A stretch of 64,000 nt of DNA from Caldithrix abyssi DSM 13497 (GTDB lineage Bacteria; Calditrichota; Calditrichia; Calditrichales; Calditrichaceae): positions 1,238,501 to 1,302,500 of the forward strand of contig NZ_CP018099.1 of the NCBI RefSeq assembly GCF_001886815.1. The letters run 5' to 3'. The notes under the pieces were generated by a model. It saw nothing but the letters and a program-made list of their open reading frames with translations. It made no database searches and was not told the DNA's origin. Made by a program: the position numbers and the translations under genes. Positions 22,426 to 44,044 of this stretch are shown here, one piece after another. Every line of letters begins with the position of its first letter. Within the stretch, counting starts at the first letter, position 1.

Positions 22426-22540
22426 CTTCTTATCCAGAAAGGTGGAGGGAACAGGCCCTGTGAAGCCTTAGCAACCTTTCCCGTTGAACCGCGGGAAAAG
22501 GTGCTAATTCCTGCCCCAACTTACGGGGAAAGATAAGAAG
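22426..22540 (+). promoter_or_regulatory. SAM-I (S-box) riboswitch
   Basis: The closing helix P1 is CTTCTTATC (22426-22434) with GATAAGAAG (22532-22540). Between them are the conserved S-box blocks in order: AGAAAGGTGGAGGGAACAGG, CCCTGTGAAGCC, TTAGCAACC, GGTGCTAATTCCTGCC and the P4-type hairpin CCCC..GGGG. Binding of S-adenosylmethionine should shut off the downstream metY-metX-aspartate kinase operon. The expression platform is the terminator at 22561-22598. Confidence 0.96.
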
Positions 22541-30633: not shown

Positions 30634-31863
30634 ATGATTTTTCTGGCCCGGTATCAAAAAACAGCGTTGCAAATTGTATTAATCTTTGTCGCTATCGGTC
30701 TTTTGTGGCTCGTCCTGTTCAGTAATATTTTGCCGGAACTGACGGGCTTTAAACTGGCTCCTTCGCTGGTCTATTTTGTTTTTTTAATCCTGGCGGCCCT
30801 TTACCTTTACAAGGCCCTTAGTGTGCCGCTGGAAAAATCGGAACAGATATCCAGGGCGCTCAGCCACAACGAGCGAAAATACAGAACCCTGGTTGAAGAA
30901 ATTAACGAGGTGATTTTTGTAATTGATCAAATGGGACGGATTACTTACATCAGTCCTTCCATAACTCTTTTGACCGGCTTTACGCCGAACGAATTAATCG
31001 GCCGCCTGTTTGTGGAGTTTATTGACCCGCGAGATGAAGAGACTGTTTTTAAAGCGTTTAAAGAGCGGCTGCGCGGACAGGTTGCCCCCTTGCAATATCG
31101 CATCTTAAGCAAAGATGGTTCCAGCAGATGGGTGCGCAGTTTAAGCAAGCCCTACAAAAACGAGCAGGGGAATATTGGCGTTCGCGGCGTGTTAATGGAT
31201 ATTACCGATCTGGTAGAAAAAGATATGGCCTTAATTGAATCGGAAGCGCGCTGGCGGGCATTGGTGGAACAGGCGCCGGATTATATTATCACCACCGACC
31301 TGAAGGGCAAAATCGAATTTGTAAACCGTAGTTTTTTTAATGTGCCCGAAAAACAGATCATCGGACAGATGATTCATGATCTGGTTCCCACCACGCAAAT
31401 GAAAAGAGTTCAGGAAGCCATCGAAAAGGTAACGCAAAAAGGAGGTTTGCATCGCTTTGAAATCGAACTCAACGTGGAAGGCCAGAAACACTGGTACCTG
31501 GTGCGCACCGGCCCCATCAAAAAAAATGACGCCATTGTCGGTTTGACCTTTATTGCCACAGAGATCACACGCAATAAAAATTACGAACGTGAATTGGAAG
31601 AAGTTCAGGCCCACCTCCAGAAGCTGGTCAGCGAACGAACGTTGGAATTAAAATCTGCCAATCGAGAAATCAGAAGTCTGGACAGGTTGATCAATGAACA
31701 ACTGAAAGATTTCGAGACGCTGTTAATGAATTTTCTGGAAAAGGTTGATGCTTGCGCCGTCCAGAGCGCCACGTCCCATTTAAACGAAATTCGAGAAGAA
31801 GCGGAGAGAATAAAAAAACAGTTTGCTGGACTTTACCGGCAGTTAAAAGAACACGGACGGTGA
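30634..31863 (+). CDS. membrane PAS-domain sensor protein without an output domain
   Basis: 409 residues. Two transmembrane helices (about 10-30 and 43-62) enclose a short loop, followed by PAS domains at about 85-195 (LVEEINEVIFVIDQMGRITY, with a PAC tail) and about 205-315 (LVEQAPDYIITTDLKGKIEF). The last about 90 residues are a long coiled coil (LEEVQAHLQKLVSERTLELK onward). No kinase, cyclase or methyl-accepting domain follows, so it should signal by partner binding. The next gene on the strand encodes a PAS/ATPase/receiver protein (225 nt away, with its own possible promoter), a plausible partner. Confidence 0.8.
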   Translation: MIFLARYQKTALQIVLIFVAIGLLWLVLFSNILPELTGFKLAPSLVYFVFLILAALYLYKALSVPLEKSEQISRALSHNERKYRTLVEEINEVIFVIDQMGRITYISPSITLLTGFTPNELIGRLFVEFIDPRDEETVFKAFKERLRGQVAPLQYRILSKDGSSRWVRSLSKPYKNEQGNIGVRGVLMDITDLVEKDMALIESEARWRALVEQAPDYIITTDLKGKIEFVNRSFFNVPEKQIIGQMIHDLVPTTQMKRVQEAIEKVTQKGGLHRFEIELNVEGQKHWYLVRTGPIKKNDAIVGLTFIATEITRNKNYERELEEVQAHLQKLVSERTLELKSANREIRSLDRLINEQLKDFETLLMNFLEKVDACAVQSATSHLNEIREEAERIKKQFAGLYRQLKEHGR

Positions 31864-32088: not shown

Positions 32089-33636
32089 ATGAGCGCTAAG
32101 ATGAAACCACCGTTAGAAAGCGATTTAAGCCGCAAAATTCTGGAAAACACCGGCGATGCGCTGATCTGTTTTGATGAGCAAGGCGAAATCGTTTTTTGGA
32201 ATGCGGCTGCAACGGAAATGTTCGGTTATCGAAAAAAAGAAGCTGTTGGGCAAAAGATGCTGTTTCTGCTTTTTGAAGAAGAACAAAGAAGGCTTTTTGA
32301 GCAAAAGATCGATGAAGTTGAAAAAAACAAAGGCCCGCATTTAGCCCCAACCTTTGAGCTGCAGGTAGTCGGCATGCACGGAGAGCAAATTCCTGTAGAG
32401 GTGACGTTGAGTTCGTTTATCCATAAAGACGCGCGCTATTTTACCGCCCTTATGCGCGATATGCGTTCCAGGAAAAAGAGGGATGAACTGAAAAACCGGA
32501 CGCAGCAATTGCAAGCCCTGAGTAGATTGGCGGGCAAAATCGCCAGCGATTTTAACAACGTGCTTTCTGTGGTGCGCGGCTATGTTGAGTTAATGCGCAT
32601 TCAGATCGATGAACGCAATCCGTTTGCAAAGCAGATCGAAGCCATTCTAAAAACCATTGAACACGCCGAAAAACTGGACGAACAATTGATGACTTTTGCT
32701 CAGGAGCCCGGACAAACAACACAAAATGTCGATCTCGCCAGAGTTTATAGTTCATTAAAAGATCTACTTTTGAAATTGCTGGAGCCAGATATTTCGTTAA
32801 AAGAAGAGATCGAAACCGATTTGTGGACGGTGCGCGGAGACCCGCAAGCGTTAAAGCGAATGTTGCTGAATCTATTTGTAAATGCGCGCGAGGCCATGCC
32901 GGAAGGCGGTGAAATTCAATTTAAAATTCAGAATATCCGATTAAACGAGGCTGAAAAGGACGAGCGAGGAATTTCCGTCGGGAGCGATAGATTTCTGTTA
33001 ATACAAATCGCAGACACCGGCAGGGGCATGCCCGAAGAGGTGCAAAAGAAGATTTTTGAACCCTTTTTCACCACGGATGAAAGAGAGGAAAAGCGCGGCC
33101 TCGGGCTTTCCGTGGTTTACGGCATGGTGCAATCCATGAATGGCGTAATTCTTTGTGATAGTCAGGTCGGGCGGGGAACCACCTTTTCCATTTATCTGCC
33201 GGCCAGTGAAACGGATGAAGAAGCGATGGAAGAAAGAGCATTAGAATCGAACGGCGGAGAAGAGACCATTCTGGTGGTTGAAGATGTGCCTGAGGTGCAA
33301 TTGCTGCTGCTGGAATTGTTGCAGACCGTTGGCTACAAAACCATTGGCGTTTCCAGCTACCAGGAAGCAATGGATTATTACCGTGCGCATGGCGAAGAAA
33401 TCGACTTGATCATCAGCGATGTGGTGTTGCCCGATCAATACGGAACGGAATTAATTCGGAAGTTTCTGGAGGAGAGGTCGGATTTGAAATACATTCTGAT
33501 TTCCGGTTATGCCGACCAGCTGGATATTGAAAAAAACAAGATGCTATTTCAGGGCCATTTTTTACAAAAACCGTTTCACCCAAGCACTTTATTACAAATG
33601 GTGCGCGAAATGCTGGACGAGGATAGAGCGGATTAA
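32089..33636 (+). CDS. PAS-histidine-kinase-like-receiver protein with Ser in place of the H-box His
   Basis: 515 residues: PAS (about 12-130, ALICFDEQGEIVFWNAA), dimerization/H-box region (about 140-205), HATPase_c (about 240-372: NLFVNAREAMPEGG, DTGRGMPEE, GLGLSVVYGMVQ) and a C-terminal receiver (about 388-510) with Asp in IISDVVLPD and Lys in LQKPF. In kinases of this type the H-box reads AGGIAHDFNN; here it reads AGKIASDFNN and codon AGC at 32545-32547 encodes Ser153. No other His stands in that helix. It may therefore lack autophosphorylation and act as a phosphatase, an allosteric scaffold or a receiver fed by another kinase. Confidence 0.9.
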   Translation: MSAKMKPPLESDLSRKILENTGDALICFDEQGEIVFWNAAATEMFGYRKKEAVGQKMLFLLFEEEQRRLFEQKIDEVEKNKGPHLAPTFELQVVGMHGEQIPVEVTLSSFIHKDARYFTALMRDMRSRKKRDELKNRTQQLQALSRLAGKIASDFNNVLSVVRGYVELMRIQIDERNPFAKQIEAILKTIEHAEKLDEQLMTFAQEPGQTTQNVDLARVYSSLKDLLLKLLEPDISLKEEIETDLWTVRGDPQALKRMLLNLFVNAREAMPEGGEIQFKIQNIRLNEAEKDERGISVGSDRFLLIQIADTGRGMPEEVQKKIFEPFFTTDEREEKRGLGLSVVYGMVQSMNGVILCDSQVGRGTTFSIYLPASETDEEAMEERALESNGGEETILVVEDVPEVQLLLLELLQTVGYKTIGVSSYQEAMDYYRAHGEEIDLIISDVVLPDQYGTELIRKFLEERSDLKYILISGYADQLDIEKNKMLFQGHFLQKPFHPSTLLQMVREMLDEDRAD

Positions 33637-33653: not shown

Positions 33654-34634
33654 TTGAATAAGCTTTTTAAAATTTTGCTCTGGATGGTCATTTTGTTGGG
33701 CGGTTTAACCATTCCCTTATTCATTGGCGAAGGCCCCTTTTCATTTAAAGAAATGTTTAGCTCGCCGCAGACCATTAACAGCCAGATTATTTTGAGCGTC
33801 CGTTTGCCGCGTATTTTCTTTGCTTTTTTAGTCGGCGCCTCGTTATCGTTGGTGGGGGCCGTTTTTCAGGTGTTACTAAGAAATGAACTGGCCACCCCTT
33901 ATACGCTTGGCATCTCTTCAGGCGGAGCGCTGGGCGCTGTGCTGGCCATTAAAGCCGGTCTGGTGATCCAGCTATTTGCTTTTTCATCCACCGTGATTTT
34001 TTCGATAGCGGGCAGTTTGCTGACCGTGGGACTGATCTATTTTATTGCCCGTGAACGGCAGGAAATTTCAACGCTTACCTTACTTTTAGCCGGGGTAACC
34101 ATCGGCTTGTTTTTTTCTTCGTTAATTCTCTTTATCCACTATCTGGCCGATTTTACCGAAACCTATCGAATGATTCGCTGGCTGATGGGCGCGCTGGATG
34201 TTGTGGGCTGGAAATATCCGCTAACGGTTTTTACGATTCTTGCGCCGGTTTTTGTCTATCTTTATTACCACGCCATCGATTTCAACCTGCTGCTTTCGGG
34301 TAACGAAATGGCCAAAGCGCGCGGCGTGAATGTACGGAGCTTACAAAAATGGTCTTTCATCGTCTCCTCTTTCCTGGTGGGAGCCTGCGTTTCCATGGCC
34401 GGGCCCATCGGCTTTGTCGGTTTAATTGTTCCGCACATTATGCGCCTTTTGGTGGGCGCCGATCATCGTGTTTTGCTGCCTCATGCCCTTGTAGGCGGCG
34501 GATTGTTTCTGGTGTGGTGCGATACCATAGCGCGCAGCATTATCGCCCCTGCAGAGCTGCCCGTGGGCGTTGTAACATCTCTGCTTGGCGCGCCGTTTTT
34601 TATCTATTTGCTGATCAAATACAAAGTGGGTTGA
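33654..34634 (+). CDS. FecCD-type ABC transporter permease (iron/cobalamin type), orphan
   Basis: 326 residues beginning at TTG (MNKLFKILLW), 17 nt after the previous gene. The protein has the multi-helix FecCD fold with LVGASLSLVGAVFQVLLRNELATPYTLGISSGGALGA near the N-terminus (the BtuC/FhuB consensus) and GFVGLIVPHIMRLLVGADHR, the cytoplasmic coupling loop. It should move siderophore- or corrinoid-type cargo with an ATPase and binding protein, neither of which is seen in this window. Its stop abuts the stop of the opposite-strand gene. Confidence 0.9.
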   Translation: MNKLFKILLWMVILLGGLTIPLFIGEGPFSFKEMFSSPQTINSQIILSVRLPRIFFAFLVGASLSLVGAVFQVLLRNELATPYTLGISSGGALGAVLAIKAGLVIQLFAFSSTVIFSIAGSLLTVGLIYFIARERQEISTLTLLLAGVTIGLFFSSLILFIHYLADFTETYRMIRWLMGALDVVGWKYPLTVFTILAPVFVYLYYHAIDFNLLLSGNEMAKARGVNVRSLQKWSFIVSSFLVGACVSMAGPIGFVGLIVPHIMRLLVGADHRVLLPHALVGGGLFLVWCDTIARSIIAPAELPVGVVTSLLGAPFFIYLLIKYKVG

Positions 34635-43538: not shown

Positions 43539-43928
43539 ATGGAAGTATATGTTGCAACCGGAAGAAGGAAAGAAGCAGTTGCACGTGTCAGGATGAAACC
43601 TGGCAGCGGTAAGTTTGTTATTAACGGTCGTGAAGGCTTGTTAGAATATTTTAAGCGTGAAACCCTGTTAATGGATATTGAGCAGCCGCTTATTTTAACA
43701 GAAACCGATGGAAAATTCGATTTTTTTATTCGTGTGAATGGCGGCGGATTAACGGGCCAGGCAGGCGCGGTAAGGTTGGGCATTGCCCGGGCGTTAGTCG
43801 CCTATAGTGAAGATTTTAGACCCGCGTTGCGCAAGGCCGGTTTTCTTACACGCGATCCTCGTAAGGTGGAGCGTAAAAAATACGGTCTGGCAAAAGCCAG
43901 AAAACGCTTCCAGTTCTCTAAGCGTTAA
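43539..43928 (+). CDS. rpsI: 30S ribosomal protein S9 (uS9)
   Basis: 129 residues: [20 protein letters not shown] at the start and the C-terminal Lys/Arg tail ending KRFQFSKR that reaches the P-site tRNA. 20 nt after rplM, and read with it. Confidence 0.97.
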
Positions 43929-44044
43929 AATTTATTTATTAAATTCACACACCATTCGTTTCCTTTCCGGGTGTCTGTCTGTTTCGACGGATTGGGAAGG
44001 TTATAGGGTGGTGGAGGTTTAACCCAAAGTCTTAGGAGATTTTT

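Follow-up and report, generated by a model that had tools for sequence, protein, structure and literature searches.

What does a hybrid histidine kinase do when the residue expected to accept the phosphate is no longer a histidine? The question is raised by an open reading frame of Caldithrix abyssi lying in the stretch of DNA analysed here (the window, 64 kb), which belongs to a genome of one contig of 4,978,541 bases. A preliminary description of the frame had reported a hybrid kinase with Ser at this site and with all ATPase motifs and the receiver Asp/Lys intact, and had proposed two roles for it: a phosphatase, or a receiver that accepts phosphate from another kinase. The relevant features are the following (window coordinates, strand, basis in brackets).

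30634–31863, plus strand: PAS-PAS protein with two TM helices and a C-terminal helical hairpin, no CA domain (Pfam, model)
32089–33636, plus strand: gene for the putative pseudo-hybrid histidine kinase, PAS-DHp-CA-REC, 515 aa (ORF, Pfam, predicted model)
32125–32472, plus strand: PAS domain, residues 13–128 (Pfam, alignment)
32488–32718, plus strand: DHp domain, residues 134–210, with predicted helices 126–172 and 178–203 (alignment, model)
32545–32547, plus strand: codon AGC of Ser153, at the expected place of the phospho-accepting His (sequence)
32557–32559, plus strand: Asn157, the Asn of the E/DxxN phosphatase motif, kept (alignment)
32731–33216, plus strand: CA (HATPase_c) domain, residues 215–376, N and G1 boxes retained (Pfam, alignment)
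33091–33096, plus strand: loss in the G2 box, Lys335-Arg336 in place of Gly-Thr/Ser, the GLGL after it intact (alignment)
33262–33621, plus strand: receiver domain, residues 392–511, with D399, D444, S472 and K494 (Pfam, alignment)
33654–34634, plus strand: FecCD permease, probably BtuC, 17 bp downstream of the kinase gene (PF01032)

Residue losses in the kinase core

The frame starts with ATG and comprises 515 codons. Pfam recognizes PAS, HATPase_c (7e-23) and Response_reg domains in its product, in which a single PAS and no TM helices are seen. Codon 153 is indeed AGC (32545–32547) and places Ser within LAGKIASDFNN; the product is hereafter called the Ser153 protein. The HisKA profile gives its DHp fragment 22.4 bits, below the cut-off of 26.9, while the same fragment of the His-bearing orthologue from genome G003 obtains 33.8 bits and the whole orthologue from the sister genome, G002, 37.7 bits.

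The ATPase motifs are not all intact as had been described: the N box (N261, N265) and the G1 box (D309-G311-G313) are there, but the G2 box is broken. The column of its first Gly and the one after it read K335-R336 in the Ser153 protein and K-K in the sister orthologue. Among 69 comparison kinases (79 seeds, merged to 71 by removal of duplicates, minus the Ser153 protein and its G002 orthologue), the first column is Gly in 68 and Glu in one, and the next is Thr or Ser in all 69. The G2 Gly is intact in the G003 orthologue. The damage extends beyond these motifs. Of the 51 DHp-CA columns conserved in at least 90% of the 69 other sequences, the near-invariant residue is lost at 13 in the Ser153 protein and at 14 in the G002 orthologue. 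No comparison kinase loses more than 10 (median 1), and the G003 orthologue, one of them, loses 5. The core is nevertheless full-length and keeps the core nucleotide-contact residues; N261, N265, D309, G311, G313, G337, G339, D154 and N157 are all retained.

Two hallmarks of a canonical hybrid histidine kinase, the phospho-His and a whole G2 box, are thus absent. Use of ATP by the Ser153 protein appears doubtful because the G2 box is damaged. The earlier proposal that the protein could not autophosphorylate by the usual route is well supported by the missing His and by the broken G2 box, which had escaped notice. As far as sequence can tell, assignment to the pseudo-histidine kinases, with the kinase fold present and the phospho-His missing in more than one lineage, is well documented.

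Retention of the N box, the G1 box and GLGL would suit one half of a heterodimer, in which the CA domain would act in trans, phosphorylating a partner kinase on its His, or the DHp domain would stimulate another kinase. A precedent exists in Corynebacterium glutamicum, where the ChrS pseudokinase is reported to raise HrrS-dependent signalling and native ChrS and HrrS to heterodimerise (PMC9491836). However, the G2 Gly-Thr is gone from both His-less orthologues and no partner kinase was identified, making this explanation very unlikely.

His-less kinases are uncommon, yet of a kind already known. A published count gives 722 of 76,471 HisKA domains without His, about 0.9% (PMC12632262), and another source a rate of about 1% (PMC5361649). 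In our data, 127 of 137 aligned matches covered the H site and yielded 107 distinct H-box peptides after duplicate merging: 105 have His, one Ser and one Arg, both exceptions falling in the orthologous group described here. The genome of C. abyssi itself contributes 53 peptides with His and this one with Ser, with a single count wherever 15-residue H-box stretches were identical in a genome group, so that true paralogues may be merged, and with coverage of matches that include the H-box region and of DHp types within the reach of the profile. One in 54 is unsurprising by count, because the published rate is 0.9% or about 1%.

Orthologues within the genus and the order of the locus

Syntenic orthologues are present in two of the three other genomes of the genus, G002 and G003. 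The codon at the H site is AGC (Ser) in C. abyssi, CGT (Arg) in G002 and CAT (His) in G003, and Ser is accordingly not fixed among close homologues. The presence of His in close relatives had been put forward as a sign of a sequencing error, and here the outcome is mixed: the nearest relative has Arg, the next nearest has His. The site has therefore changed in this branch. As the codons stand, a slip of sequencing at Ser153 is unlikely. An error of sequencing or assembly would have had to alter at least two positions, the distance of AGC from any His codon; it would leave the Arg of the sister genome and the linked losses elsewhere in the kinase core unaccounted for, and as an explanation of the locus it is hardly credible.

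The orthologue from G003 (L058, 6936–8915) carries an extra N-terminal receiver and reads REC-PAS-DHp-CA-REC; about 1 kb lacking a long ORF precedes it. A remnant of such a receiver was looked for upstream of the C. abyssi frame and none was found. In the fourth genome of the genus, G001, the kinase gene is absent and the permease gene comes 91 bp after the PAS gene. As far as the contigs reach, the common order is a peptidase, the PAS membrane protein, the kinase, the FecCD permease and an SH3 protein. We take the peptidase to be of the S66 type. The G002 locus is spread over two contigs, and the PAS gene and the kinase cannot be seen side by side there.

No orthologue was found outside the genus, either among 40 relatives or among the 15 genomes of the family (C. 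abyssi included), and the pseudo-hybrid kinase group appears by sequence to be genus-restricted. Seven loci recovered by a scan of genome contigs were considered as wider orthologues; none proved orthologous, the best being 37% identical over the core. The orthologues score 452–516 bits and the best of the remaining matches 288, and His is found in every row where the site was read. In a DHp-CA tree of 71 sequences, the Ser153 protein and its G002 counterpart group with SH-aLRT support of 99, and the G003 protein joins them at 97. The tip branches of the two His-less cores are long, 0.83 and 0.91, versus 0.015–0.26 in the other tight pairs of C. abyssi and sister sequences.

Uneven constraint on receiver and kinase core

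The receiver Asp and Lys were described as intact, and this is borne out: E398/D399, D444, S472 and K494 are all in place, D399, D444 and K494 being invariant across an alignment of 32 sequences. With D444 present, the protein lacks the mark of a pseudo-receiver, the absence of the Asp. The receiver also differs from the remainder of the protein in its rate of change. Between the Ser153 protein and the G002 orthologue, identity is 23% in PAS, the fastest-changing part, 53% in DHp, 49% in CA and 77% in the receiver. Against G003 the figures are 38%, 47%, 43% and 57.5%, taken from a separate domain comparison, this pair being absent from the list of reciprocal pairs. Neighbouring genes of C. abyssi and G002 encode products that are 65.5% (PAS protein), 80% (permease), 76% (peptidase) and 54% (SH3 protein) identical.

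Taken over the whole kinase core, the two His-less orthologues are 52% identical, compared with 77% for their receivers, a difference of +25.6 points. This is the excess of one orthologous pair set against seven controls, namely the other reciprocal hybrid-kinase pairs of C. abyssi and G002, for which receiver minus core is -14.2, -14.1, -7.4, -6.7, +2.5, +3.7 and +4.3. For pairs between other genomes the difference lies between -20.7 and +5.8, with the exception of one partial sequence, the G000–G003 control L002/L108, which gives +16.8 over only 82 core columns. When the His-bearing orthologue is one of the pair, the difference is about +11 to +14. Conversion of the receiver sequence between genes was considered as a cause and is argued against by equal synonymous divergence: third positions of the Ser153 and G002 genes are 39% identical in the receiver and 42% in the core, and 10 of 32 and 18 of 42 shared four-fold sites, respectively, are identical. 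Since synonymous sites are equally diverged, it is the protein sequence of the receiver that is kept, and on these comparisons ordinary constraint is seen in the receiver alone, consistent with purifying selection.

The same comparisons bear on decay of the gene, by which a hybrid kinase that lost its job would be drifting towards disappearance. Absence from one member of the genus, where the PAS protein and permease genes are adjacent, points in this direction, as do the fast change of kinase core and PAS and the unfixed H site, with Ser or Arg. On the other hand, the frame is full-length in two lineages, the receiver remains 77% identical despite highly diverged synonymous sites, and the core, still 52% identical, keeps N261, N265, D309, G311, G313, G337 and G339. 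Decay is unlikely to be the explanation.

Likely role and parallels in other systems

The AlphaFold2 model of the Ser153 protein (mean pLDDT 80.4, pTM 0.45) contains PAS, two DHp helices, CA and receiver; residues 333–338, with the altered G2 residues inside, have pLDDT below 50. Its top fold match is the DHp-CA structure of CckA, 5idj (Z 23.6, rmsd 17.1, 215 aligned), and it also matches CckA 5idm (Z 22.9, rmsd 5.9, 174 aligned) and DivL 4q20 (Z 20.5, rmsd 1.7, 144 aligned). As modelled, the histidine kinase fold is kept, although a common fold shows no function.

The best-studied parallel is DivL of Caulobacter crescentus, described as having neither kinase nor phosphatase activity (PMC4211667); its kinase fold is reported to have come to sense a response regulator in the phosphorylated state (PMC4211667, PMC5361649). 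Like the Ser153 protein, DivL combines PAS with a DHp-CA fold and has a residue other than His at the phosphorylation site (PMC4211667). Its structure 4q20 ranks near the top of the structural matches to the model, and its sequence match (1.9e-13) is significant but weaker. In DivL, by contrast, the site holds a conserved Tyr, or Ala in one homologue, there are several PAS domains, and the architecture described for it includes no receiver; the present orthologues have one PAS, Ser or Arg at the site and an intact C-terminal receiver. Ser at the site, the single PAS and the receiver rule out an orthologue of DivL. By analogy, the mechanism could in principle be DivL-like, though with the receiver on the same chain. 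CckA, the Caulobacter hybrid kinase, shares the order PAS-DHp-CA-REC (PMC9981736), and 5idj, named only "histidine kinase" in the sequence-match listing, is the top match by sequence as well as by fold. CckA differs from the Ser153 protein in possessing the phospho-His, a second PAS domain and two TM helices.

Among the ethylene receptors of plants, members of subfamily II carry receivers. They resemble the Ser153 protein in having a degenerate histidine kinase domain within a phosphorelay-type protein (PMC4730734), and in RcsD of enterobacteria a functional HPt is reported alongside what is called a pseudo-histidine kinase domain (PMC3762810). Both have other sensor domains and come from other lineages, and RcsD has an HPt instead of a receiver. 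The ChrS pseudokinase mentioned above is kinase-dead and still shapes signalling through another kinase; it differs in being a laboratory-evolved frameshift of the CA domain, with the conserved His present, in a protein that is not a hybrid (PMC9491836).

The phosphatase role first proposed is possible but the weaker of the two. In this case, the DHp domain with Asn157 would dephosphorylate its own receiver or a separate response regulator. Both His-less orthologues retain D154 and also N157, the Thr/Asn four residues past the His position; for phosphatase activity HisKA proteins are reported to need this Thr/Asn, not the acidic residue (PMC3510030), and the conserved His to contribute without being essential (PMC12632262). 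However, both residues are invariant in 32 of 32 aligned kinases and are no special sign; the protein has no H-box His by which phosphate could pass back from its receiver; and reported participation of His in the phosphatase reaction (PMC7005713) speaks against full activity. DivL is without phosphatase activity in the account cited (PMC4211667), and published frequencies argue against this as the general role of pseudo-kinases (PMC12632262). A phosphatase alone is thus a rather unlikely answer.

Of the two proposed roles we favour the acceptor, in view of the receiver alone being under ordinary constraint. The Ser153 protein is probably a retired kinase, a pseudo-hybrid histidine kinase confined to the genus, with some other protein loading or reading its receiver; we prefer such a scaffold because the His is missing, the G2 box is damaged, and the receiver is complete and conserved. 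The ancestor would have been a working PAS-HisKA-HATPase-REC kinase, as suggested by the relative at the same locus in which the His and the G2 Gly survive and a further receiver stands at the N-terminus. That receiver is missing from C. abyssi and its sister, as are the phospho-accepting His and the first G2 Gly; their kinase core has evolved quickly, while purifying selection of the ordinary kind has continued to act on the C-terminal receiver. Unable, presumably, to phosphorylate itself, the protein would have Asp444 loaded or unloaded by another kinase or phosphotransfer protein, or its state read by a partner, and a dimeric PAS-DHp-CA scaffold might hand that state on. Several observations count against this reading: no partner kinase or phosphotransfer protein was identified; the gene is dispensable in one of the four members of the genus (G001); and the excess of the receiver is that of one orthologous pair, with +16.8 in the partial control and about +11 to +14 in the pair with the His-bearing orthologue.

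The neighbouring genes offer candidate targets. The PAS protein has no kinase or output domain and is itself genus-restricted, found in 4 of the 15 family genomes, that is, in all four genomes of the genus; in C. abyssi, G001 and G003 its gene lies beside the FecCD permease region. The model places its C-terminal hairpin in helices 317–377 and 381–406, and PAS proteins head its Foldseek list. A second His-less kinase was considered for it and rejected, with HisKA reaching only 13.5 bits (E 0.076) for the copy from G003 and unlisted for the C. abyssi copy. The permease stands alone in the genome in matching PF01032 strongly, at 292 bits; two others reach 39 and 35. The only Peripla_BP_2 protein is encoded away from it, downstream of a cobalamin riboswitch and of a TonB-dependent-receptor-like gene, the latter named by eye and from PMC5317091. 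For C. abyssi, that source reports an arrangement of this very kind, a riboswitch 292 nt upstream of btuB/btuF (Cabys_4039-4041), with btuC separate (Cabys_1071). From this layout and a position a quarter of the way along the contig, the permease is probably BtuC; its gene is far from its binding protein and riboswitch. By position, 17 bp upstream of the permease gene, the kinase may be linked to vitamin B12. No cobalamin riboswitch was found in the 64-kb window or at the orthologous loci, a scan for promoters and terminators returned no more than in shuffles, and titles and abstract openings of literature on signalling in Caldithrix held nothing on this gene. Elsewhere in the window, a SAM riboswitch (RF00162) lies at 22427–22539 on the plus strand (90.6 bits), and a t44 RNA family match at 43928–44023 (44.8 bits) barely exceeds the gathering score of 44.

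Tentatively, the flow of signal may even be reversed, with the former kinase taking its input from another kinase through the receiver and passing it to the membrane PAS protein or the B12 permease system. If true, the reversal would be caught in the making, with a presumed working His kinase, Arg and Ser forms that strongly keep the receiver alone, and complete loss at one locus. Histidine pseudokinases have received little study, although the His is missing from about 0.9% of HisKA domains (PMC12632262). The series of His, Arg, Ser and absent forms in one genus, together with the matched His-bearing orthologue, is a natural series, and the clean contrast in constraint between core and receiver makes the purpose of a His-less hybrid kinase directly testable. 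It is this series and the preserved receiver, not the mere absence of the His, that give the locus its interest.
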